Origin: a bacterium
GTDB lineage: Bacteria > Coprothermobacterota > Coprothermobacteria > Coprothermobacterales > JAADFF01
DNA length: 16,365 bases
Reading direction: 5' to 3'
NCBI GenBank assembly: GCA_027063755.1
Contig: JAMORD010000211.1
Coordinates: 1 to 16,365 of the forward strand
Shown here: piece by piece, positions 2,454 to 14,609 of the stretch
Layout: each line of letters opens with the position of its first letter
Position numbering within the stretch: the stretch's first letter is position 1
Notes under the pieces: model-generated
Databases searched by the model: none
What the model was told of the DNA's origin: nothing
The model's input: only the letters and a program-made list of their open reading frames with translations
Translations under genes and position numbers: made by a program

Positions 2454-2478
2454 GACCGATACGAGTTGAGAGGTGATA

Positions 2479-3840
2479 ATGGTGGGAAATACATCGCTTC
2501 GTAGAAAGATTTGGGAGACCTTTATTGGGTACCTTTTCCTTTCCCCAGTTATTATTATTAAAACTTTATTTACCTTTGCTCCGTTTATCTTTGTTATATA
2601 CATGAGTTTTTTCGCATTTGATTCTGTACACATGACACAGCCCAGTACATGGAAACCTGTTGGGCTGAGAAATTATGTGTACTTTCTTGTACCAGCCTCA
2701 TCAAGGGTTGAGACAGGCCAGTTAAATGTCACTGCCACATGGGAGGGTAAAACCATTACCGTTAACGGAAAGATCGGTAGTAAGGATGTTGTCGGTACAC
2801 TAACTTCATCTGTGCCTGCTGGTGAGAAGATAACCCTTACTTTTACTGGTTCTGTTTCTTCTGATCCCCAAAACTTTGGCACGATGAGTGTTTTTATCAG
2901 ATCAAACAACGACAATCTACCAGATACAAATATTTCAGGAACCTTGAATGTTGGTAAGAGAGAATATATATTAAATAATAGCAGCATTGAAGATAATTAT
3001 ATTGCACTTGCCGGCAAATATGGAGAAGATATAGGATTTGACCTTGCCGGTGTTGTAAATGCCGATAGGCCGGCTATAGGTGGTGTTCATGTTAGCTCTG
3101 GAGCAGAGCTGTTTTATAAATCACTGTGGTTTACTGTGAAATATGTGCTTTTTGAAGTTCCTATACTGCTTATTGTGGCTTTGTTTGTGGCCATATTGCT
3201 GTGGGGTAAATTAAAATACCTTGACCTCTACAGAACGGGTATTTTCTTCTCATATGTGACCCCTGCTGTTGCTACGGCTATGATGTGGAAGGCTATGTTC
3301 TACAAAGATGGTTTCTTTAACCATGTGCTCCAGTCCATGCATCTGCCTGTACCGGGTATTGAGACGGCAGCGGGTCATGTTACCATGGCATGGTATCAAG
3401 TGATGCCATGGGCATTCTGGACACTAATTATTTACAGTGTGTGGAAAGGGCTTGGTTTCAATTCTCTTGTGTTCTTGGCAGGTCTCATCAATATACCTGA
3501 AGAACTTATGGAAGCAGCCCGTGTAGATGGTGCCAATGAGTGGCAGGTATTTAAGAGTATTGTGCTACCGCTTTTGTCCCCAACGATTTTCTTCCTAACA
3601 ATGATTAATCTTATTGGTGCTTTTAAGATATTCTCACCTATATTGGTGTTAACCGGTGGTGGTCCTAACAATGAAACAACGTCTATGGTTTATCTTGTGT
3701 ACCAGCTGGGTTTCCAAGATTTTGACTTCGGTAAGGCTGCTTCAGTTTCGGTTGTTCTATTTGTTATAATCTTCGCCGTATCGCTCCTTCAGAAATACCT
3801 TGGCGATAAAATTGTCTTCTACGCAGGAGAAAAGAGGTGA
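2479..3840 (+). CDS. ABC importer permease, CUT1 family (MalF/UgpA-type), with a large extracytoplasmic insertion
   Basis: 453 residues from the ATG at 2479, which follows GAGAGGTGAT; the upstream GTG at 2473 lies in that site, and the GTG at 2482 is a possible alternative. A first membrane helix spans about 17-45. After the usual NY element (GLRNYVYFL, about 70) comes a roughly 130-residue, beta-rich, Thr/Ser/Gly-rich segment (about 75-205, with strands such as ATWEGKTITVNGKI and GEKITLTFTGSV). Five further helices follow. The cytoplasmic ATPase-docking EAA loop is clear: EAARVDGANEWQVFKSIVLP. Normal members are about 290-320 residues, so the insertion explains the excess. E. coli MalF also has a large P2 loop, but between helices 3 and 4. 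Partner of the next gene; substrate probably a sugar, oligosaccharide or glycerol-phosphate-like solute, by family. Confidence 0.93.
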   Translation: MVGNTSLRRKIWETFIGYLFLSPVIIIKTLFTFAPFIFVIYMSFFAFDSVHMTQPSTWKPVGLRNYVYFLVPASSRVETGQLNVTATWEGKTITVNGKIGSKDVVGTLTSSVPAGEKITLTFTGSVSSDPQNFGTMSVFIRSNNDNLPDTNISGTLNVGKREYILNNSSIEDNYIALAGKYGEDIGFDLAGVVNADRPAIGGVHVSSGAELFYKSLWFTVKYVLFEVPILLIVALFVAILLWGKLKYLDLYRTGIFFSYVTPAVATAMMWKAMFYKDGFFNHVLQSMHLPVPGIETAAGHVTMAWYQVMPWAFWTLIIYSVWKGLGFNSLVFLAGLINIPEELMEAARVDGANEWQVFKSIVLPLLSPTIFFLTMINLIGAFKIFSPILVLTGGGPNNETTSMVYLVYQLGFQDFDFGKAASVSVVLFVIIFAVSLLQKYLGDKIVFYAGEKR

Positions 3841-3846
3841 TTGGCT

Positions 3847-5043
3847 GTGAAAGGTACATTCAAGTGGTTAAGATATCTTCTCCTAACGATAGTGCTCGTA
3901 ATAAGTCTGTTTCCATTTTATTGGCTTGTTATGGTATCATTTCAGGCCAATCCTGAGGAAGAACTTAAGCTGATTCCCGATACAGGTGTTTATGTAGTGG
4001 AGACATATGATGAGAATGGTAACCTTCTGCACCGTTTTAGTTATCCCAAAGAAAAGCTATCTGAAATACCAGATTATTTCAAGAATAATGATGGTAAAGT
4101 TGTTTATGTAAAGCGTGATGATGATGGTAATGTGAAGCTTGTTAAGGCTTATCCTTCTTGGGATAAAGTGCCTGCTCGTTTCAAAGATGAGGCAGTTCTT
4201 GTAAGGGTAAAGAAAGAGTCTGTATATCTTGGTAACTACAAAGATGCATGGAGCCAAGTGAAGAAGTGTTATACTGACCCCAGAGAACTGAAATCTTTAG
4301 AACCTTTGCTTCATAAGACATGGATGGATAGAGCCTTTAATGGGCTTTACAATGTAACGGTAAAGGCTATCAATGCTGTGTTTGGCACACATATCAATCC
4401 CTACTGTATTACATGGGGTAGATACTTTTACAATGCTTTGATACTCGCAATATTCCAGACAGTGGCTGTAGTTCTTGTTTCATTACTTGGAGGATATGCA
4501 TTTGCCGAGCTTCATTTTCCTGGTAGAGATGTTATCTTTATGCTGCTTGTGGGTACGATGATGATTCCCGGTCAGGTGCTTCTTGTCCCGAATTACACCA
4601 TTATTAGCAAGCTTGGATGGATGGATTCTTATATGGCGCTAACTATTCCTTGGATTGTTAGCATATTTGGTATATTTCTTATGAGACAGTTTTTCTTATC
4701 CCTTCCAAAAGATTATTGGGATGCTGTCAGAGTAGATGGTGGTAATCGTTTCCATTATCTGTTTTTGGTGGCCTTGCCTATGGCCAAATCATTTGTCGCA
4801 ACAATAGCACTTCAGAGTTTTATTGGTGCATGGAATGCATTCTTGTGGCCATTCATTATGACTAGTCACAATGAATTTATTAGACCTATTGAAGTGGCCC
4901 TTGCGACATTTATGGGTGAGCAAACACAGCTTGGACCGCTGGCTGCAGCATCTGTTATAGCCATTGTACCTGTTGTTATCATGTTCTTCTTTGCCCAGAA
5001 ACAACTTATTGAAGGTGTTATGAAAGGTGGTCTTAAAGGGTAA
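3847..5043 (+). CDS. ABC importer permease, CUT1 family (MalG/UgpE-type), with an extracytoplasmic insertion
   Basis: 398 residues from the GTG at 3847. A TTG directly at the previous stop is also in frame, but the GAGGTGAT site overlaps it and spaces correctly to the GTG. Helix 1 (about 8-32) ends in the canonical MVSFQ. An unusual charged stretch with repeated D-G-N turns follows (about 40-125: TYDENGNL, NNDGKVV, DDDGNVK). The standard NYKDAW element comes next, then another extra stretch of about 50 residues, before YFYNALILAIF starts helix 2. The EAA loop is DAVRVDGGNRFHYLFLVALP. Normal members are about 275-285 residues, so about 120 are extra, all predicted outside the membrane. Forms the channel with the upstream permease, which ends 6 bases earlier. 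No ATPase gene is present, so a shared MsmX/UgpC-type ATPase encoded elsewhere is likely. Confidence 0.93.
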   Translation: MKGTFKWLRYLLLTIVLVISLFPFYWLVMVSFQANPEEELKLIPDTGVYVVETYDENGNLLHRFSYPKEKLSEIPDYFKNNDGKVVYVKRDDDGNVKLVKAYPSWDKVPARFKDEAVLVRVKKESVYLGNYKDAWSQVKKCYTDPRELKSLEPLLHKTWMDRAFNGLYNVTVKAINAVFGTHINPYCITWGRYFYNALILAIFQTVAVVLVSLLGGYAFAELHFPGRDVIFMLLVGTMMIPGQVLLVPNYTIISKLGWMDSYMALTIPWIVSIFGIFLMRQFFLSLPKDYWDAVRVDGGNRFHYLFLVALPMAKSFVATIALQSFIGAWNAFLWPFIMTSHNEFIRPIEVALATFMGEQTQLGPLAAASVIAIVPVVIMFFFAQKQLIEGVMKGGLKG

Positions 5044-5057
5044 TAATATAGATGGAA

Positions 5058-5102
5058 TTGTTGTATCCTTTAAGTACCACCTAATATAAAAAGGAGGTGT
5101 AC
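5058..5102 (+). promoter_or_regulatory. Possible regulatory leader before the binding-protein gene: weak promoter and RBS-sequestering hairpin
   Basis: The 62-base gap between the second permease and the binding protein holds two signals. A weak promoter-like pair is TTGTTG at 5058-5063 and TAATAT at 5082-5087 with an 18-base spacer. An imperfect inverted repeat pairs GTACCACCT (5074-5082) with AGGTGTAC (5095-5102): eight base pairs with one bulged C and a 12-base loop. The 3' arm contains most of the ribosome binding site (AAGGAGGTG), so the fold would hide it. Either could adjust binding-protein level separately from the permeases. Both are short and could be chance. Confidence 0.3.
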
Positions 5103-5105
5103 CGT

Positions 5106-6914
5106 ATGAAGAAATTTATTACTCTTTTGCTGGCAGTAGCCATGGTTCTTACTATGGGTATTGTTGCTCCTACATTTTCTACCCATAAAGCCAATGCTGC
5201 CAGTGTAGTAAAGATTGTTCTTCCTACAAAACCTGCGGCAGATGGAAAGTATTACATGGAAGTTAATGGTGAGAAGAAGGTTCTTGATGCACCACCATTT
5301 ATCTACAATGGTAGAACACTTGTTTCTGCCCGTTGGATTACATCTGCATTTGGTGCAAATGTATCCTGGGATGATAAGACAAGAACTGCCGTATTTGAGA
5401 TGGATGTTGAAGGTGAGACCATCTCTATCACTGTTCAGGACAAAGGCGATCAGTGGGTGAAGACCGCTCTTGGCGATGCCAAGGTCTTTTCCAACAATGT
5501 ATTTGTAAAGAATACATTTGTTTCTGATCAGCCCGTTTCTGTTGTTCTTGATGTTCCTGCAATGAACCCCAAGACAATTGGCCGTATCTATATTCCTCTG
5601 AGATTTGTATCTGAGACATTTGGTGCTGCTGTTACATGGGATGCTCAGACAAAATCTGTTGTTATAGAGTGGAATAAAGATAGCATTATCAATCCTGTTG
5701 AGGTAACATTCTGGCATGCTATGAGGGCCAAGCTCGGTGATGCCCTCAATGAACTCATTGATGAGTTCAATATTACACATCCATATATTCTTATTAAGCC
5801 TATTGCACAGCCAAACTATGGAACACTGTCTCAGAAACTTCTTGCAGCTATTTCCGACGGCAAGCCACCTGTTATGGCACAGGCATATGAAAACTGGGTA
5901 GACCAGTATCTTAAGGGCGATATTCTTGAAGAGATGGGGAAATATATAGACGGTAAGGTTTCTGGTGTAGACCCACTGTATAAGGGTGATAGAGAGGATA
6001 TCTTCCCCATTTTCTGGAAAGATACATATCTGAATGGTAAGCAGTATATGATGCCATTCAACAAGTCTCTAAGGGTTCTCTATGTTAATGCTGATGAGCT
6101 TGAGAAACTTGGTGTAGAGGCTCCAAAGACATGGGAGCAGCTTGCTGATATTTCTAAGCAGGTTACAGAAAAATACAATGGCCAGAAGAAAGGTATTGCC
6201 GTTTATGTCGGTGCAGAGCTGTGGTATTCCATGGTGCATGCATTTGGCGGTAAGGTTATGGACGATAGCCTTTCCAAGTCTATGTATCCTAAGTATCCAC
6301 AGGCCTGGGAGAAGTCATTTGGTTTCTTCAAGGACCTTATTGACCAGGGTTACGCCTACATTGCTCCACCAAACTACGGTGACCAGAAAGAGTTTGGTAA
6401 GGGTAATACTATTTTCTATATCGGAACCACAGCAGGTATCACATATGTTGATAAGGCTGTTGGTGGCAAGTTCCACTATGATGTCTATCCACTACCCGGT
6501 GGAGCTATGACTGTTGAAGGTACCAACCTTGTTATGTTTAAGGGTTCTGAGATTACACCTGAGCAGCAGAAGGCAGCCTGGACATTTATCAGATGGTTGG
6601 CATCTCCAATTCCTCAGGCCAAGTGGTCTATGGCCACAGGTTACTTCCCAGTTAGAAAGTCTTCTTGGGAACTTGATATCTATAAGGAGTATCTCAAAGA
6701 TAATGCTTGGAGAAATAGATTCCTACCTGTCTTTGAGGGTAAGGTTAAAGATTATCAGCTACTTATTACTCCTGCAAGCAGTGCATGGGGTAAGGCAAGA
6801 AGAGATGTTAGTAACCTTGCCTCTCAGGTTCTGAAAGGTGAGATTTCTCCTTCTGATGCTGCACAGACACTCCATAACAAGCTTCAGCAGTATATCCAGG
6901 AGGAAAATCAGTAG
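5106..6914 (+). CDS. Secreted ABC solute-binding protein (SBP_bac_1, UgpB-like) with an N-terminal copper-amine-oxidase-N domain
   Basis: 602 residues from the ATG at 5106, ideally placed after AAAGGAGGTG; the GTG at 5097 is part of that site. A signal peptide (MKKF, then a hydrophobic core) ends at an AxA site (KANA, about residue 31). There is no lipobox Cys, and I see no cysteine in the protein. Residues about 36-195 form a Cu_amine_oxidN1-type domain with two half-repeats: NGRTLVSARWITSAFGANV...WDDKT and IYIPLRFVSETFGAAVTWD. From about 200 it is a periplasmic-binding-type protein: VTFWHAM, WEQLADISKQV, and the UgpB-like end GYFPVRKSSW. Such proteins are usually about 420 residues, so the N-terminal domain is an addition, probably a wall- or surface-holding module replacing a lipid anchor. 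Third gene of the importer operon, ending at a strong terminator. Ligand unknown. Confidence 0.93.
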   Translation: MKKFITLLLAVAMVLTMGIVAPTFSTHKANAASVVKIVLPTKPAADGKYYMEVNGEKKVLDAPPFIYNGRTLVSARWITSAFGANVSWDDKTRTAVFEMDVEGETISITVQDKGDQWVKTALGDAKVFSNNVFVKNTFVSDQPVSVVLDVPAMNPKTIGRIYIPLRFVSETFGAAVTWDAQTKSVVIEWNKDSIINPVEVTFWHAMRAKLGDALNELIDEFNITHPYILIKPIAQPNYGTLSQKLLAAISDGKPPVMAQAYENWVDQYLKGDILEEMGKYIDGKVSGVDPLYKGDREDIFPIFWKDTYLNGKQYMMPFNKSLRVLYVNADELEKLGVEAPKTWEQLADISKQVTEKYNGQKKGIAVYVGAELWYSMVHAFGGKVMDDSLSKSMYPKYPQAWEKSFGFFKDLIDQGYAYIAPPNYGDQKEFGKGNTIFYIGTTAGITYVDKAVGGKFHYDVYPLPGGAMTVEGTNLVMFKGSEITPEQQKAAWTFIRWLASPIPQAKWSMATGYFPVRKSSWELDIYKEYLKDNAWRNRFLPVFEGKVKDYQLLITPASSAWGKARRDVSNLASQVLKGEISPSDAAQTLHNKLQQYIQEENQ

Positions 6915-6936
6915 TTTGTTTATGCGCATTTGACTC

Positions 6937-6969
6937 AAAGGGGGGGCATTGCTCCCCCTTTTTTCTTTT
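6937..6969 (+). terminator. Rho-independent terminator of the ABC importer operon
   Basis: Starts 22 bases after the binding-protein stop. AAAGGGGGGGC pairs with GCTCCCCCTTT (11 pairs, one G-T) around a 3-base ATT loop, followed by a T-rich tail (six T, C, four T). This is a textbook intrinsic terminator. Its right arm and tail overlap the promoter region of the next gene. Confidence 0.9.
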
Positions 6970-6977
6970 GGTACAAT
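6949..6977 (+). promoter_or_regulatory. Promoter of the membrane-protein gene, overlapping the upstream terminator
   Basis: TTGCTC (6949-6954) and TACAAT (6972-6977) are separated by 17 bases, and the -10 is extended (TGG directly before it). Initiation would fall near 6983-6985, only a few bases before the ATG at 6987, implying a leaderless or nearly leaderless mRNA. The -35 lies inside the hairpin of the preceding terminator. Confidence 0.5.
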
Positions 6978-6986
6978 ACAAGGGCT

Positions 6987-8261
6987 ATGAAAAAGTTGTG
7001 GACTTACACAGTACTATTAATAGGGGTATTTTTTATTGTCTTAGGCTTTTCTTCTTCCCATTTGTGGTATTCATTGCCACGATCGAAAAATACAGAAGCT
7101 TTTGTTGTATATTCTAAAGGTAGACCTCCTTATGATATTGTCATTATTTCTTCTATGTTTGATAGAGCACTTTCATATAGAGCGTATGCTTACAAATTTC
7201 AGGATAAGAATGTAGCGCTTGTAGAGTTTAAGCAGCCAATTAAAACGGCCTCAACAGTTGATTACTATGTTCAGCAAATTGCCTCTTTGGGGGCTACTAA
7301 TACTGTGTACATAGGTCAGGCCTTTGCAGGTGAAATTGCTTCTCATTTAAAGAAATCTATTGTTGTCTCGCCTACTACATTTACTATGACATCTACTGTT
7401 GTTGTTGGTACATCTGATTTTGATGGTTCCCGCATGATAGCAAGAGACATGGAAAGAAAAGGTGCTCATGTTGTGTGGACAAAGGCTACCCATGTAACAG
7501 TACCATATGCTGATGGCATATGTAGGGCTTTTGGTAGAGAAGCATGTTCTGATCTGTCGGGGCTATTTTTCAAGATTGTTATGGCTATGGTAGGTATGGC
7601 TTTTCTGTTCTGGTGGCTGTATATGTCTGTAGGTAGTAAACTTGAACCTTCATATGATGTACCTACTGTTCGCGTATGGCTTTTATTGCTTTTGCCTCTG
7701 GCTGGGTTTGTTATACCCTTTGTTTTTAAGTTTTTTAGATTGCCAATTCTTGGTATTGAAGAAATACTGCCTCTTGCAGGTTTTGCCTTGCTTGTGGGAA
7801 TATTGGCTGGTGGAAAATACCATTTTACCGACTTTGGTATGGGACTCTTATTAGCGCTTATTGTATATGTGGTGTTTATGAAACCTATGTACTATATGGG
7901 AATTATTCCTTATATAACTCTCAATAAGCTTGCAGTTATACCTGTTATTGCTCTATTGGTTTCTCCGTATACAGTAGCACTTGAACGATGGAGATATCAT
8001 TTTAGTAGCACACCATTTGCGGGATTATGGCTTCCTTTTGTATACCTTCTCCTGTGGTTTCCTTTTCTATTATCGGCATTTTTTTATACGAATCTTCCTT
8101 TTTATCACATTTTCTTTTACAGCTACAAATTTCTTTGGATATCTATTTTTATAGGGTTTGTATCATTACCATTCTTTAAAAAACACCCAGATTATGTAGG
8201 TCTTATGAATGCCTATCTGTGGGCTATCTATACGGTATTATTACTTGTAGAAATTACTTAG
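6987..8261 (+). CDS. Polytopic membrane protein with an alpha/beta-hydrolase-like extracytoplasmic domain lacking the catalytic Ser
   Basis: 424 residues from the ATG at 6987; the frame opens further upstream only through the terminator, so this start is preferred. One helix (about 5-24) is followed by a soluble segment of about 170 residues, then about seven to eight hydrophobic helices (about 195-424). I do not recognise a named family. The soluble part has the strand/turn pattern of an alpha/beta hydrolase: YDIVIISSM, then VYIGQAFAGEIAS where a GxSxG nucleophile elbow would lie (here G110-Q-A-F-A-G115), then VVVGTSDFDGS resembling the acid loop, and ATHVTVPY with His169 resembling the catalytic His. 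The Ser is Ala, so hydrolysis is unlikely. The hydrolase reading is an inference. It follows the importer terminator with its own promoter, and its stop is one base from that of the convergent aminotransferase-like gene. Confidence 0.85.
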   Translation: MKKLWTYTVLLIGVFFIVLGFSSSHLWYSLPRSKNTEAFVVYSKGRPPYDIVIISSMFDRALSYRAYAYKFQDKNVALVEFKQPIKTASTVDYYVQQIASLGATNTVYIGQAFAGEIASHLKKSIVVSPTTFTMTSTVVVGTSDFDGSRMIARDMERKGAHVVWTKATHVTVPYADGICRAFGREACSDLSGLFFKIVMAMVGMAFLFWWLYMSVGSKLEPSYDVPTVRVWLLLLLPLAGFVIPFVFKFFRLPILGIEEILPLAGFALLVGILAGGKYHFTDFGMGLLLALIVYVVFMKPMYYMGIIPYITLNKLAVIPVIALLVSPYTVALERWRYHFSSTPFAGLWLPFVYLLLWFPFLLSAFFYTNLPFYHIFFYSYKFLWISIFIGFVSLPFFKKHPDYVGLMNAYLWAIYTVLLLVEIT

Positions 8262-8262
8262 A

Positions 8263-9366
8263 TTAACTGTGAATATATTCTTTGGGTGCCTTGGCGATAG
8301 TGGTAAGCAGCTTCTCCATATTTTCTTTCCATGAGATAGATATACGCATATGGCCTGTCATCCATGATGGTTGTGCAAATACTCTAACAAGTATACCGTT
8401 TTCTTCTAAGAAATATGAAAGTTTATCTGGTTGTGCAACCCGAAGGAGTAAGAAGTTTGCCTCTGATGGGTATACGACAATATCCATCTCAAGTAGCTTG
8501 TCTCTTGTATCGTCCCTTATATTTTCAATTTCCTCCCATACTCTTTCGTAGTCTTCTATATTCATCAGGGCTTCAAGGGCAGCCATCTGAGCTATAGGAG
8601 TAATATCTATATCACGGCGTATTTTCCGCAATACCTCAATATTATCTGCATGAGATATTACAGCTCCTATACGAAGCGATGCCAGTCCAAATGTCTGAGA
8701 GAACGAACGGAGAATAATAAGGTTAGGATAGTGTTCTATAAGATCGGCTGCACCAATAAATGATGTATCGGCAAAAGATACATATGTTTCGTCAATAATC
8801 AATGGCACAGAGTCGGGAATGGTGTCTAAAATATCCCATATTCGCTCTACTGGCAGATATTGACCTGTTGGATTATGAGGATTGGTTAGATATATGCCGT
8901 GGGCATCGTAAAGGTCAAAGGCTTCTAAAATTTCTTCAATTTCCAGTGAGTAAATAGGAGATGGTCTTACAGGAATAGGATCTATACCATTTATCTTCAT
9001 TGTCTGATATGCGTGTCCGTATGTGGGTATTCTGTATACCATGCGAAAGTCTTTATAAGTGAATGTTCTTAGCACGCTGTCAAGGGCTGGACTGGAACCG
9101 GGGAATAAGAGAATGTTGTCTGGTTTTACTCCTATTGTATCGGCAAATACTTCTACCAGTCGTGTCATTTCACCATGGGGAAATAAATTGAGTTTGGGAT
9201 TTTCGGCCCATATCTTAACCACTTCTTCAACCTTTGGGTGAACATAAGGTAGCTCATTCATATGTAGCCTGATCATATTTTCTGTGTGTGGTTTGCTGTG
9301 ATTTTTAAGAAACGGATCTTCTTGAATCTCGATGATGTGTGGATTAACCCATAACCCTTTACTCAT
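8263..9366 (-). CDS. HisC-like class I/II aminotransferase homologue lacking the PLP-binding lysine
   Basis: 367 residues, ATG at 9366, with GGAGGT nine bases upstream; it overlaps the glycosyltransferase stop by 8 bases (ATGAGTAA), so the two are translationally coupled. The fold type I features of histidinol-phosphate aminotransferases are present: FPGSSPALD (about 88-96), IPTYGHAY, NPHNPTG with Asn165, IIDETYVSF with Asp192 and Tyr195, Arg232 in SLRIG, and the substrate-carboxylate Arg341 in HMRISIS. The Schiff-base Lys of the SK(A/T)FGLAGLR motif is Gln224 here (LRSFSQTFGLASLRIG; codon CAG at 8695-8697). Without that Lys, ordinary transamination should not occur. It may be a non-catalytic or altered-chemistry PLP protein. 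It lies in an operon with a methyltransferase, phosphoesterase and glycosyltransferase rather than his genes, so a role in histidine synthesis is not supported. Confidence 0.93.
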   Translation of the reverse strand: MSKGLWVNPHIIEIQEDPFLKNHSKPHTENMIRLHMNELPYVHPKVEEVVKIWAENPKLNLFPHGEMTRLVEVFADTIGVKPDNILLFPGSSPALDSVLRTFTYKDFRMVYRIPTYGHAYQTMKINGIDPIPVRPSPIYSLEIEEILEAFDLYDAHGIYLTNPHNPTGQYLPVERIWDILDTIPDSVPLIIDETYVSFADTSFIGAADLIEHYPNLIILRSFSQTFGLASLRIGAVISHADNIEVLRKIRRDIDITPIAQMAALEALMNIEDYERVWEEIENIRDDTRDKLLEMDIVVYPSEANFLLLRVAQPDKLSYFLEENGILVRVFAQPSWMTGHMRISISWKENMEKLLTTIAKAPKEYIHS

Positions 9367-10534
9367 CGTCTTTTACCTCCAGCCTCTTGACTTTGTACCA
9401 CGGTACATTCCCCCTATTTTTTATTATGTCCCATAAAGCCAGTGGAATAACAATGTACACATAGTGTAAGAATATTGTAGTCCATAAACCTTCTATAATA
9501 GCTTTACCTAACGGCATATCCCTTTCTAAGTTTAGGCTGGCTATAGATAAACCGTATATGGCAAGAATGACAGGTACATATGTTACGAGAAATATCCACG
9601 ATATGTGAGAGAAAATCGTTGAAATAAGCACAGGTAGTACAGCTATAATGATGCCAAAAAATATTAATAGCGATAATGCCATTTTGTCTCCCCATATAAC
9701 ACTACTTATGGATTCTATTATTCCCCCCGCAAACCAGCGTATTTGTTGTTTAATAAAGTCTGACCAAGTGTAGGGGAGCTGAATAATTGTTTGGGGATAG
9801 TCTTTAAACCACAATCGTTTATGCATGAGGTAAAGTTTCGTAACGAGAGAAAAGTCATCAACGAGCGTATAAGGGTCCCAGCCTCCTATTGCCCTAATAG
9901 CTTTCTTTTTGAAGAAAAAACCATTACCTATTAGAAATGAACGACCGATAAGGCCTCCATGTGTTACAAGTTGAGACCACGCAAACATGTTATCTTGCAT
10001 ATGAGTAAGTATATTTTGATTTCTATTGAGACCTATATAACCTGAAAGTAAAACATCAACGAATGGAGAAGATATGTAAGGTAAATGGCTTTCTATATAG
10101 TTCTCAGGCAGTATTGTGTCTGCATCTATAACAAGGGCTATATCTCCAGTCATGTAGTCAAGGGCTTCGTTGAGCGATTGTGGTTTGCGGGGAACTCCTT
10201 TTTTCCTGTATACCTTTAGTTTCGGTATTTCTTCCATTAGAGATATGAGCAGTTCATATGTTCCATCAGTAGAGTGATCATCTATCACGATAATCTCTAT
10301 GTTTTTATGGGTTTGCTTAAGTAGCTTGCGAATGGTTGTTTCAATAACCTCTATTTCGTTGTAAACAGGAATTATGACGCTAACAAGAATGTCTTTGTTG
10401 TAGGGTTCAGCCAGTTGTTCCAAACGATAATTTCTATACATATAGTGCAAAAATCCAACCAAGGCCGATACAACAACAATGAGCAAATAAACGACAGTCA
10501 GCCCAATTATCGTATTAATAGATGCAATATCCAC
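9359..10534 (-). CDS. Membrane glycosyltransferase, family GT2 (processive-type, NodC/HasA/BcsA-like)
   Basis: 391 residues from a GTG at 10534 with GGGAG four bases before it. An N-terminal helix (about 8-30) precedes a GT-A catalytic domain: VSVIIPVYNE (51-60), DDHSTDG (Asp85/86), the DxD metal site DAD (137-139), the acceptor-site acid in VDDFSL (226-227) and QQIRW (263-267). This D, DxD, D, QxxRW set defines GT2 enzymes such as chitin, hyaluronan and poly-N-acetylglucosamine synthases. About three further helices (about 287-370) form the membrane part. It should transfer sugar from a UDP-sugar on the cytoplasmic side to a polysaccharide or lipid acceptor; sugar and acceptor cannot be read from sequence. 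Third in a four-gene minus operon, 15 bases after the nucleotidase gene and overlapping the aminotransferase-like gene. Confidence 0.93.
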   Translation of the reverse strand: MDIASINTIIGLTVVYLLIVVVSALVGFLHYMYRNYRLEQLAEPYNKDILVSVIIPVYNEIEVIETTIRKLLKQTHKNIEIIVIDDHSTDGTYELLISLMEEIPKLKVYRKKGVPRKPQSLNEALDYMTGDIALVIDADTILPENYIESHLPYISSPFVDVLLSGYIGLNRNQNILTHMQDNMFAWSQLVTHGGLIGRSFLIGNGFFFKKKAIRAIGGWDPYTLVDDFSLVTKLYLMHKRLWFKDYPQTIIQLPYTWSDFIKQQIRWFAGGIIESISSVIWGDKMALSLLIFFGIIIAVLPVLISTIFSHISWIFLVTYVPVILAIYGLSIASLNLERDMPLGKAIIEGLWTTIFLHYVYIVIPLALWDIIKNRGNVPWYKVKRLEVKDDE

Positions 10535-10549
10535 AATGCTCCCCCTTGT

Positions 10550-12094
10550 TTATACTGGTTCGTATGAGATATTATGGGCATTTTTAATGCATTCAGGTAA
10601 GAAATACCAATTGTTATCGGCTTTTACCTGCTCTATCTTACCATTTTGAATAATATCTCTAATGATAAGGTCTCTAATGGATATACTGCTACTATAGGTT
10701 ATCCCTCTATCTCTGGCTACTCTAAATCCAATATATCCGCCAGAACCACCGGCACGGTATGAGTTAACAGCTACCTTATACTCTTTGTCTGGTATAAGAT
10801 CTGCCGATACCCTCTTACCAAAGGGGCTTGACAGGTCTATAGTGTAGTGAAATCCCCTATAGATATCAAAGTTATAGAAGGCCACAAGTGGATTTCTTAT
10901 TAAAGTGGCCTCATTGTCTTTACACTGGAAATCTTTAAAATATTCTGCTGACTTTTCCAACATATCCAGTATTTCTTTCCCTGTCATAGAGATAACATAT
11001 AGGAGATTTTCATACGGATATATGCGATAAATGTCTTTGATCTTTATAGGGCCTTTCTCCATTACAAATGGTTCTTTGCCCATGAAAGATTGCACACTGA
11101 TGTCGGCTCCTGAATACTTTTCCATAATATATAGCAGATACTCCATACCATTACTGTCTTTGGTTGGGGTAAACTCCATATCATCTTCAAGGGTGCCAAT
11201 TTCTTGGTTCATATATCTTACGGTAAATTTGTGTAGTTCTTCTATGAACTGTGGTGTTTCTGTGATTTGCGATGGCACAAGTTTAATATCAGTAATATCA
11301 AATGTGTCTTTATCAATGTTTACCGATACATGCATAAGGCCTTCTGCGTAGGGTGGTGGGGCTACTACCCATGTGTCGCCTATTTTTTGTGGTTCTTTTC
11401 TTTCGTGGGTGTGTCCGTGGAATATTAGAGGAAACTCACCTGGGAATGTCTGGAGTATTTCGTAAAGGGCATTTTCAAATGGTAAATGCCTTGTTTTTTT
11501 ACCTGTTATAGGGTCTTTTTCAAAGCCCATGTGGGCAAGTAATATAACATGGTCAAAGTCTTCTTCCAATGTGGGAAGCCATCTTTTTATTGTCTGCACG
11601 GAGTCTTCAAATGTATACGGTTTGATATTGTCAGGATGTTCAAACCATGGCACGGCTGGTGTTGTAATGGCAAGAAATGCTATTTTGACATCACCAACAT
11701 ACACAGGTAGGAATGGTATAAATGCCTCTTTGTCTTTTCTAAGCACATTGGCCGCAAGATATGCAAACTTACTGTGTCTAAATATGCTGTCTACAAATGC
11801 ATATCCGTAGTTAAAATCATGATTGCCTACTACAACACCATCGTAGCCTAGCATCTCAAAGACAGTCTTCATAGGATGGCTTTCCGGACGGTACATGTAT
11901 GTTGATATGTGTGATATGGGGCTACCTTGAAACGAATCACCAATGTCTATCAAAGTCGTATATCCGCTGTTTCTTACATCCTCAATGTAGTTTTTTAGAC
12001 CCCACAGTCCTCTTGGTTTTCTTTCATCGGCAATATAGTCATATGCGTGTATATTACCATGTACATCTGTTGTGGCAAGAATATTAAGGTGCAA
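10550..12094 (-). CDS. 5'-nucleotidase/cyclic phosphodiesterase-family metallophosphoesterase, cytoplasmic
   Basis: 514 residues from a TTG at 12094. The ribosome binding site AGGAGGGGAT is formed by the last codons of the upstream methyltransferase gene, which stops two bases before this start. The dimetal phosphoesterase motifs are complete: TTDVHG (Asp10, His12), DIGDSFQGSP (Asp53), VGNHDFNYG (Asn91-His92), LLAHMG and HGHTHE. The C-terminal 5'-nucleotidase substrate domain follows (ADISVQSF, YRIYPYENLLYVISMTG, VNSYRAGGSGGY). The family (UshA, YfkN, YunD) removes phosphate from nucleotides or opens 2',3'-cyclic nucleotides. There is no signal peptide, as in YunD, so it should act in the cytoplasm. 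Second gene of the minus operon. Exact substrate uncertain. Confidence 0.93.
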   Translation of the reverse strand: MHLNILATTDVHGNIHAYDYIADERKPRGLWGLKNYIEDVRNSGYTTLIDIGDSFQGSPISHISTYMYRPESHPMKTVFEMLGYDGVVVGNHDFNYGYAFVDSIFRHSKFAYLAANVLRKDKEAFIPFLPVYVGDVKIAFLAITTPAVPWFEHPDNIKPYTFEDSVQTIKRWLPTLEEDFDHVILLAHMGFEKDPITGKKTRHLPFENALYEILQTFPGEFPLIFHGHTHERKEPQKIGDTWVVAPPPYAEGLMHVSVNIDKDTFDITDIKLVPSQITETPQFIEELHKFTVRYMNQEIGTLEDDMEFTPTKDSNGMEYLLYIMEKYSGADISVQSFMGKEPFVMEKGPIKIKDIYRIYPYENLLYVISMTGKEILDMLEKSAEYFKDFQCKDNEATLIRNPLVAFYNFDIYRGFHYTIDLSSPFGKRVSADLIPDKEYKVAVNSYRAGGSGGYIGFRVARDRGITYSSSISIRDLIIRDIIQNGKIEQVKADNNWYFLPECIKNAHNISYEPV

Positions 12095-12096
12095 TG

Positions 12097-13341
12097 TTAT
12101 CCCCTCCTGAGTTTCAGAATGGTTAACATTTCAATATGCCATGTTCTAGGGAACATGTCAATAGGTATTATTGTCTCTATCTCGTAGTATTCGGATAGTA
12201 GGGTAATATCTCTAAACATCGCCGGTGGATGGCAAGAGATGTAAGCTATCTGCCTGGGCTTGTACTGAATAATCTTTTCTATGATTTCCTCTGAGATACC
12301 CGAGCGGGGAGGGTCAAGTACCAGTGTTTCTGTTCCCGGTAGTACATCATCGGCAACCTCTTCGGCCTTGTTAGGGTATACGGTGATAGGAATCTTATTA
12401 TTTTTACCATTGATTTTCATAGCCCTTGCCGATTCGCGGTTTGCCTCTACACCTATTCTAAAGCCGTGATACTGGGTCAGTGGTAGCAGTAATGCACCAA
12501 CACCTGCGTAAAGGTCTACGATCTTTTCTGATGGTTCAAGGTGTGTCTTTAATATGTTAATGATATGATTCAGCCCTTCATTGTTGACTTGGAAAAATGC
12601 CCTTGGTGGTATAGTAATCTGCAGTCCATCAACTGTCTCCGTCAGACGGGAATGTCCCCATGAGTTCCATATCTTTCCGTGAAGTATTTCCCTGTTGTTT
12701 TTGTTAATCATAGTGACAAGTCCTGCCCATTTGCCGCGAGGGGGAAGTTTCTTGATGACAAAGCTTTCAGGTTCATACATAACGATTATCATGAGCACCT
12801 TCCCACCGTGTTGTCTCATAACAACGGCTCTTGTTGTCTGGGGAAACTGTTCTACCTCATAGAGTATTTCTGAAAATGCCTTGGGGCCTAAAACACAGTC
12901 AAGGGTCGGTACCAGTGTTCGTTTACCTCTTGACCAAAAGCCCAACTTTCCACGGTAAAAGTGCCATGTGATACGATTTCTGTATCTTACAGGCACTGTT
13001 GGTCTAATATCCTCTACAGGTACGCCTCCCAAGCCACTACGGGATAACATGTCCTCTATCATATGCTCTTTAATGGACAGCTCGTCTTCATACGATACAC
13101 TTCTAAAACGGCATCCACCGCATTGTGGAAATACAGGGCAATCTGGTGTTTTTCGCATGGGAGAAGGTTCGTTTATCTCAAGGAGTACACCAAAATTGGT
13201 ACCTTTTTTACGCTGAACTATCTCATATGTGATCTTATCTCCGGGAAGCACATCGTCATCTATCAGAACAACACCCTCTTCGGGGTCTCTAATAAGCCCA
13301 TATCCACCGTATACGATTTTTTCTACCTCTGCTATCTTCAT
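12097..13341 (-). CDS. rlmD: 23S rRNA (uracil-C5)-methyltransferase, RumA/RlmD family
   Basis: 414 residues, ATG at 13341 after GGGAGGG. A TRAM RNA-binding domain (about 1-57) is followed by the [4Fe-4S] cysteines Cys68, Cys74, Cys77 (CPVFPQCGGC) and Cys149. Then come FFQVN (249-253), the SAM-binding loop IVDLYAGVGALLLP (about 274-287, Ala where Cys is common), LDPPRSGI (342-349), the catalytic Cys370 in YISCHPPAMFRD and the base Glu404 in WHIEML. Together these define the RNA m5U methyltransferase family, which methylates uridine C5 with S-adenosylmethionine. Target specificity (RlmD, RlmC, dual RlmCD or TrmA-like) cannot be settled from sequence, so the symbol is the nearest family name. 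First gene of the minus operon; its last codons carry the ribosome binding site of the nucleotidase gene. Confidence 0.92.
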   Translation of the reverse strand: MKIAEVEKIVYGGYGLIRDPEEGVVLIDDDVLPGDKITYEIVQRKKGTNFGVLLEINEPSPMRKTPDCPVFPQCGGCRFRSVSYEDELSIKEHMIEDMLSRSGLGGVPVEDIRPTVPVRYRNRITWHFYRGKLGFWSRGKRTLVPTLDCVLGPKAFSEILYEVEQFPQTTRAVVMRQHGGKVLMIIVMYEPESFVIKKLPPRGKWAGLVTMINKNNREILHGKIWNSWGHSRLTETVDGLQITIPPRAFFQVNNEGLNHIINILKTHLEPSEKIVDLYAGVGALLLPLTQYHGFRIGVEANRESARAMKINGKNNKIPITVYPNKAEEVADDVLPGTETLVLDPPRSGISEEIIEKIIQYKPRQIAYISCHPPAMFRDITLLSEYYEIETIIPIDMFPRTWHIEMLTILKLRRG

Positions 13342-13403: not shown

Positions 13404-14609
13404 ATGAAGTATGCAAAGTATATTTGGACACTTTTGATAATAGGTCTCATTATTAATGGATTCTTCATGTTTTCTGTTTCTTCTCAGGACAGTGGTATTG
13501 TATGGGTTTATCAATCACCTCAGAAATATAGGGATTTATACCTGAGGGAAGCGGCTGTTTGTGGCGATATAGCCATTGTTTCCCCTATGTCTGTTTCGTC
13601 TACTGGTGAGTTTTACCCATTTACGCAGGCGATAGATGTGCAAACTGGGAGTGTGGTATGGACTGCCAGCGTAGGTGGGCATGTTATGTGTACCCGTGAT
13701 GGTATATATCTTCTTGATGATTTTCAGCATGTAGTGAGGTATCTGTCTATATGGGGACATGTGCAGCGGGAAAGGTATGTACCTGTAGCTCGCGGTCGCT
13801 TCATGGCAGAAACTAACTATGGTATTGCCGTTTTACAGTCTGATGGTACGGTGCTTCTCATGGGAGCAGGGCTTACAGGAGGTGCTTCTATTACGACATT
13901 GTATCCTCCCACTATTGGTTCTATGCTTGTATCTGATGGGCAGATGCTATTTTGGAAAACAATAGTAGATGACCACTATGCCATTGTGGGCTTTGATATT
14001 CTTCATGCTAATGTAGTATGGGTAAAGCAGATTAATATCCATAAGTCTTATATGGTGCCATACGATAAATATCTCTTTGTTAGTGGGTTTGAAAAACTCT
14101 ATGTGATAGACAAGATGAGCGGTAATATTCTACGCTCTTATGATGTGGCATATTATGAACCATATATTGTGGCTTCAGATGGCAAACTGCTTATCCCTCG
14201 TAAAGATTGGCTTGATGTGTTTGATAAAGACAATGGACTACTCGTTAGGGTTTATAAAGACAGCGACATGGTGTTTTCTGCCTATTCTATAGCAGGCAGT
14301 CGTGTTATCAATGTAGATAGCGATGCCGGTAAGGCCTATGCCTGCACCATAACATCAGATTTGCAGTGCACAGGCCGTAAGGTATGGACTTTTTTAGAGA
14401 ATATGATTATGGGTGATAAGGTTTATGGTACAGGCTTGAACTTTGTTGTGCCTGTAAAAGATGGTTGGCTTGTGTTTCTGACCTATCGTACTGTACCCAC
14501 AAGGTATATTAACGGCTATGAGGTTATCTTCTTAGAAGATAAAGGGGTGTCTCCCACGAATGAGTGGGAGACACCCTTTGGTGGTCCTGATGGTAATGGC
14601 ATGCCATAG
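13404..14609 (+). CDS. Signal-anchored beta-propeller protein (PQQ-like repeats), function unknown
   Basis: 401 residues, ATG at 13404 after AAAGGTGG. One N-terminal hydrophobic helix (about 7-27, FMFSVSS) without a lipobox Cys predicts secretion or membrane anchoring with the rest outside. The body is a series of beta blades with the PQQ/quinoprotein-type cadence of an acid, a turn and then a V-x-W or equivalent strand: VQTGSVVWTASVGG, ILHANVVWVKQI, DKMSGNILRSYDV, DKDNGLLVRVYKD. Such propellers (PQQ_2, BamB-like) serve as scaffolds or ligand binders; no enzyme motif is visible. The tail after about 375 (YEVIFLEDKGVSPTNEW) is encoded through a terminator-like hairpin and may not be part of the fold. 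It is a single gene, divergent from the methyltransferase operon and convergent with topB, one base between stops. Confidence 0.85.
   Translation: MKYAKYIWTLLIIGLIINGFFMFSVSSQDSGIVWVYQSPQKYRDLYLREAAVCGDIAIVSPMSVSSTGEFYPFTQAIDVQTGSVVWTASVGGHVMCTRDGIYLLDDFQHVVRYLSIWGHVQRERYVPVARGRFMAETNYGIAVLQSDGTVLLMGAGLTGGASITTLYPPTIGSMLVSDGQMLFWKTIVDDHYAIVGFDILHANVVWVKQINIHKSYMVPYDKYLFVSGFEKLYVIDKMSGNILRSYDVAYYEPYIVASDGKLLIPRKDWLDVFDKDNGLLVRVYKDSDMVFSAYSIAGSRVINVDSDAGKAYACTITSDLQCTGRKVWTFLENMIMGDKVYGTGLNFVVPVKDGWLVFLTYRTVPTRYINGYEVIFLEDKGVSPTNEWETPFGGPDGNGMP
14541..14580 (-). terminator. Terminator-like hairpin for topB, embedded in the opposing coding end
   Basis: GGGTGTCTCCCAC and GTGGGAGACACCC form a perfect 13-pair stem with a 6-base GAATGA loop; flanking AAA/TTT extends it with one bulged G. 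On the minus strand it begins about 30 bases past the topB stop and is followed by a moderately T-rich run (TTTATCTTCT). On the plus strand it is followed by GGTGG, a poor tail, so it fits topB better than the propeller gene in which it lies. Confidence 0.65.

Follow-up and report, generated by a model that had tools for sequence, protein, structure and literature searches.

A lysine that forms a Schiff base with PLP is the hallmark catalytic residue of the fold-type-I PLP superfamily, and in aspartate aminotransferase (AAT) it is critical for catalysis (PMC6389717). In AAT a tyrosine of the active site is supplied across subunits (PMC6715241). Relatives of PLP enzymes that have lost the lysine are already known. 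The nucleotide-sugar 3-dehydratases ColD, E1 and SpnQ, which are aminotransferase relatives, have a histidine in its place that serves as acid/base, and E1 and SpnQ carry an iron-sulfur cluster (PMC8987622). LCB1 of serine palmitoyltransferase is not thought to bind PLP and is needed beside a related active paralogue (PMC5519370). For natural class I aminotransferase-like proteins in which the lysine is replaced by glutamine, we found no paper in the open-access literature.

Here, we describe a HisC-like protein with glutamine at this position, encoded in a 16,365-nucleotide stretch of DNA (the window) that makes up contig C211 in a draft genome of 1.5 Mb and 88% completeness (Table 1). Around residue 224 the open reading frame reads NLIILRSFSQTFGLASLRIGA, and the CAG codon appears as CTG on the plus strand. 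Gln224 lies opposite the lysine of the SK motif in solved HisC structures (8bj1, rtfsKragla; 3hdo, rtlsKsysla; E. coli 1fg3, rtlsKafala; phmmer alignments), and, judged from these alignments, its register as the PLP-lysine position is beyond doubt. The protein matches Aminotran_1_2 (PF00155, 8.4e-40) and is predicted to adopt the full HisC fold (AlphaFold2 model, pLDDT 84.2, pTM 0.85), the solved structures closest to the model being HisC (8bj1, Z 40.0). It shares sequence match and whole fold with aminotransferase class I/II of the fold-type-I superfamily but not the Schiff-base lysine, which is Gln224 in both species of the genus in which the gene was found. The resemblance to HisC extends to length and to the PLP-anchoring and carboxylate-binding residues, whereas the lysine and the equivalent of Tyr55 differ, and the score against TIGR01141 hisC, the best NCBIfam model, is below the curated cut-off (212.7 versus 276.55 bits). 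No hisG was found in any of the nine Dictyoglomota genomes (control found in 13 of 14), so neither this protein nor its Lys-bearing paralogue is likely to act in histidine synthesis. The Lys-less protein is a warning against labelling genes of this kind hisC. L-Threonine/L-serine-O-phosphate decarboxylases are also near in fold (CobD 1lkc, Z 38.1; SMUL_1544 6oux, Z 34.2). CobD has its own lysine, unlike the protein described here, which scores below the TIGR01140 cut-off (148.7 versus 290.55 bits).

Table 1. Features of the Lys-less gene and its operon-like run, in window coordinates.
Feature	Position	Strand	Basis
PLP-lysine-less HisC-fold protein (367 aa)	8263..9366	-	Pfam, NCBIfam, AlphaFold2 model
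Gln224 (CAG), replacing PLP Schiff-base lysine	8695..8697	-	ORF translation and alignments to HisC structures
Phe62 (TTT), equivalent of E. coli HisC Tyr55	9181..9183	-	alignment to 1fg3
Asn165, PLP-ring contact, kept	8872..8874	-	41-homologue alignment and 1fg3
Asp192, PLP pyridine-nitrogen partner, kept	8791..8793	-	invariant 41/41
Tyr195, PLP O3' partner, kept	8782..8784	-	invariant 41/41
Arg232, PLP-phosphate arginine, kept	8671..8673	-	invariant 41/41
Arg251, also in Lys paralogue; AAT Arg292* position by spacing (putative substrate side-chain role)	8614..8616	-	R in 4/41
Arg328 (HisC Arg322 equivalent), kept	8383..8385	-	39/41
Arg341 (HisC Arg335 / AAT Arg386 equivalent, substrate carboxylate), kept	8344..8346	-	41/41
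Family-2 glycosyltransferase, processive-type; overlaps Lys-less gene by 8 bp	9359..10534	-	PF00535, 2.6e-30
5'-nucleotidase / cyclic-phosphodiesterase family protein, upstream in run	10550..12094	-	PF00149, PF02872
RlmD-like 23S rRNA methyltransferase, first gene of run	12097..13341	-	TIGR00479, 206.6 bits (cut-off 183.55)

A preliminary description of the locus had already assigned Gln224 to the PLP-lysine position and listed the equivalents of Asn165, Asp192, Tyr195, Arg232 and Arg341 as kept, and the alignments agree on both points. Ser223, counted among the PLP anchors, is also kept. The further statement that the rest of the pocket is conserved holds for the PLP anchors and the carboxylate arginines, but not for Phe62 or for the near-invariant columns as a whole. 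The Phe62 column has tyrosine in all 38 of the other homologues with a letter there (41-homologue alignment) and in 71 of 72 relatives from IMG/VR. In HisC the subunit that supplies this tyrosine is presumably the same as in AAT. The Gln pair departs from the family at seven of 29 near-invariant columns, compared to 0-4 in any other homologue; the PLP-anchoring positions among these columns belong to the 22 that are kept. Both Gln proteins combine Gln224 with Phe62, and neither residue occurs in the other genome-derived aligned homologues. A further phenylalanine, Phe19, may stand opposite E. coli Tyr20, but this pairing is tentative, because the model has a pLDDT below 50 over residues 1-27. 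Given Phe62 and the number of altered near-invariant columns, alignment and model together indicate that the catalytic center is a coordinated re-tooling on an intact scaffold rather than a single swap.

The glutamine is conserved and rare. A second species of the genus, represented by an independently assembled public Dictyoglomota MAG contig (G001, JAADFF010000048.1, L035), has Gln at the same site, encoded by CAA, and the two proteins are 95% identical. None of their 19 differences falls on the anchor residues Asn165, Asp192, Tyr195, Ser223, Arg232, Arg251, Arg328 and Arg341. Between the two species the gene has a dS of 1.27, a dN of 0.025 and a dN/dS of 0.020, lower than the values for the glycosyltransferase (0.039) and nucleotidase (0.071). 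The Lys paralogue is 79% identical between the same species, with a dN/dS of 0.041 that is rough because its dS of 3.1 is near saturation. The Gln form is thus constrained at least as strongly as its active-looking Lys sister. At the Gln224 column, all 39 other homologues in an alignment of 41 from genome searches have lysine. When the Gln version of the HisC motif was searched as a DNA pattern, 2 of 386 genomes matched, the pair that belongs to this genus, compared to 21 of 60 genomes for the Lys version. A scan of some 85,000 species genomes with a peptide pattern recovered the sister species as the only orthologue beyond the source, a profile search of 372 genomes gave only Lys forms outside the genus among aligned loci, and searches of the phyla of genomes G235, G009 and G286 found no Gln form. 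The first scan of viral contigs found no relative; a second scan (IMG/VR) with a broader alignment found relatives, with lysine in 72 of 72 distinct ORFs, a result biased by the presence of the lysine in one of the three seed patterns. Only two Gln-type sequences are known, which limits arguments from co-conservation. On this comparative evidence, the protein is a real, conserved and lineage-restricted Lys-less member of the HisC fold, in a superfamily where ColD/E1 and LCB1 are already known as Lys-less relatives.

In a phylogenetic tree the Gln pair is sister to a Lys paralogue present in both genomes (support 100/97), indicating that the lysine was lost from one of the two copies left by an old duplication. 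The paralogue is 35% identical to the Gln protein and shares with it Arg251 and the motif FADT.F.GA...E, but it has both the lysine and the tyrosine. Its operon also differs, running from the HisC-like gene (Lys) through an NTP_transf_3 nucleotidyltransferase and a CDP-alcohol phosphatidyltransferase to an LPG_synthase_TM flippase-like protein (L036:653-4098 in G000:C139; L037:6443-9889 in G001:C87). This arrangement is reminiscent of a Kennedy-type route to a phospholipid head group with a phospho-amino acid as its starting compound. Both genomes of the genus carry the PLP synthesis gene pdxS, so the cofactor can be synthesized.

The Lys-less gene is the last of four on the minus strand, after genes for an RlmD-like methyltransferase, a 5'-nucleotidase family protein and a family-2 glycosyltransferase, with gaps of 2, 15 and -8 bp. 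This order and these spacings, including the 8-bp overlap, are the same in G001. In the glycosyltransferase the DDH, DAD, DDF and QQIRW motifs are intact and hydrophobic segments lie towards both termini, so that it has the look of an active membrane protein. The overlap points to coupled translation and is a weak hint of shared function. The sugar-linked or regulatory role put forward in the preliminary description draws solely on this overlap, which is kept in both species.

Our preferred interpretation, held tentatively and somewhat short of probable, is that the protein holds PLP, PMP or an anionic ligand without classical transamination, as a partner of the glycosyltransferase. In this view, a HisC-like aminotransferase that arose by duplication in one lineage of the Dictyoglomota would have lost the Schiff-base lysine and the partner tyrosine and been retained for a new role. 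Its putative homodimer would keep the B6 cofactor sites (Asp192, Tyr195, Asn165, Ser223, Arg232) and the sites for an anionic ligand (Arg341, Arg328, Arg251). With the lysine gone, an internal aldimine could not form and the 1,3-proton shift would lack its base, and the proton transfer needed for transamination would presumably not take place. PLP or PMP would instead most likely be held without a covalent bond, or in a stable adduct whose ligand is an amino acid or a phospho-amino alcohol, making the protein a ligand-responsive, non-transaminating partner of the enzyme whose gene overlaps its own. Counted in favor of this interpretation are the Gln in both species, the low dN/dS, the lower divergence than that of the Lys paralogue, the pairing of Gln224 with Phe62, the kept anchors, the predicted HisC fold, the conserved overlap and four-gene order, the absence of hisG and the presence of pdxS. 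The loss of the lysine and tyrosine, the selection and the gene overlap are observations, while cofactor binding, the dimer state, the lack of transamination and the link with the glycosyltransferase are inferred. Counted against it are the weak argument that gene overlap by itself provides for the partnership, and the fact that the kept substrate arginines could equally be used by an unusual catalytic activity. With its very strong purifying selection, the coupled Tyr-to-Phe substitution and a sister copy in the same cell that looks active, the protein is a clean natural experiment on the capabilities of the fold without its lysine. The locus also draws attention to an unstudied pair of genes, linked to a glycosyltransferase, in a little-known lineage of uncultured bacteria.

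Two other explanations are the main rivals. The first, which we consider unlikely though the best placed of the alternatives, is that the protein is catalytically active through B6 chemistry that needs no lysine: a removable PMP would condense with a keto or aldehyde substrate, such as a sugar, to give a Schiff base, and another residue or water would move the protons. The retained cofactor-anchoring residues and the adjoining glycosyltransferase are consistent with this possibility. An engineered D-amino acid transaminase, K145Q, has been studied as an enzyme (Bhatia 1993, cited in PMC8105722). It is reported to have residual activity. ColD, E1 and SpnQ, with His for Lys, provide natural precedents that use PMP (PMC8987622). 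The likeness to ColD noted in the preliminary description stands as far as the loss of the lysine is concerned, but the acid/base role of the ColD/E1 histidine (PMC8987622) is impossible for glutamine. The protein also lies outside the DegT/DnrJ/EryC1/StrS family to which ColD/E1-type enzymes belong, matching only PF00155 in Pfam at an E-value threshold of 0.001. The tyrosine that would assist is Phe62, and no gene for a nucleotide-sugar 4,6-dehydratase or similar enzyme was recognized in the window. A related reading, somewhat more doubtful, is a Gln-type B6 enzyme that uses PMP or PLP with neither a Schiff-base lysine nor a substitute histidine and modifies a sugar or amino-alcohol phosphate that the glycosyltransferase uses or makes. 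We favor the non-transaminating holder over such catalysis because glutamine cannot act as the histidine of ColD, E1 and SpnQ does and because the assisting tyrosine is lost as well.

The second rival, to which we give a rather low probability, is that the protein pairs with the Lys paralogue (G000:C139) in a mixed dimer and serves as the non-catalytic partner, much as LCB1 does with LCB2 in serine palmitoyltransferase (PMC5519370). Both copies are present in both genomes, as sister clades, so that an active-looking paralogue accompanies the Lys-less protein in each (C139 in G000, C87 in G001). The pattern of loss runs the other way, since the residue that would be lent to the partner's site (Tyr55*/Tyr70*) is lost and the protein's own-site anchors remain, the opposite of the needs of a supporting subunit and a difference from LCB1. 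In addition, the paralogue is encoded in another operon and has the higher rate of evolution.

The remaining explanations fare worse. A slow but real Lys-free transaminase, adequate at high growth temperature, is improbable. The lineage is related to the thermophilic Dictyoglomus, and the substrate arginines and carboxylate site are kept, but such an enzyme would have to work without a residue that is critical in aspartate aminotransferase (PMC6389717), and the added Tyr-to-Phe change would be left unexplained. Slightly less probable again is a relocated lysine that forms the Schiff base from elsewhere in the chain, making the protein an ordinary PLP enzyme; 16 lysines are common to both Gln proteins and some of them are not in the Lys paralogue, but none is at a known PLP-contact position of HisC, and in the alignments Lys248 is an ordinary family lysine. 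Least of all can Gln224 be attributed to sequencing or assembly error, recent mutation or a decaying pseudogene, a concern raised in the preliminary description since AAG and CAG are one base apart: the sole close orthologue found has Gln with a CAA codon, and a dS of 1.27 with a dN/dS of 0.02 rules out these origins and supports the earlier view that the gene is not simply decaying.

Further features were noted elsewhere in the window. An ABC transporter sugar-binding protein (5097-6914) has a copper-amine-oxidase-N-terminal-like domain fused before its binding domain, and both ABC permeases (2473-3840 and 3841-5043) have long inserts ahead of the permease core that recall the MalF periplasmic loop. 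Convergent with the Lys-less gene, across a 1-bp gap, is a gene for a 442-aa protein (6930-8261) with about eight hydrophobic segments that is conserved in G001 and has no Pfam or NCBIfam match. A 401-aa protein encoded divergently from the operon start (13404-14609) has no Pfam match, is also conserved in G001, and looks from its sequence like a secreted PQQ-type beta-propeller.
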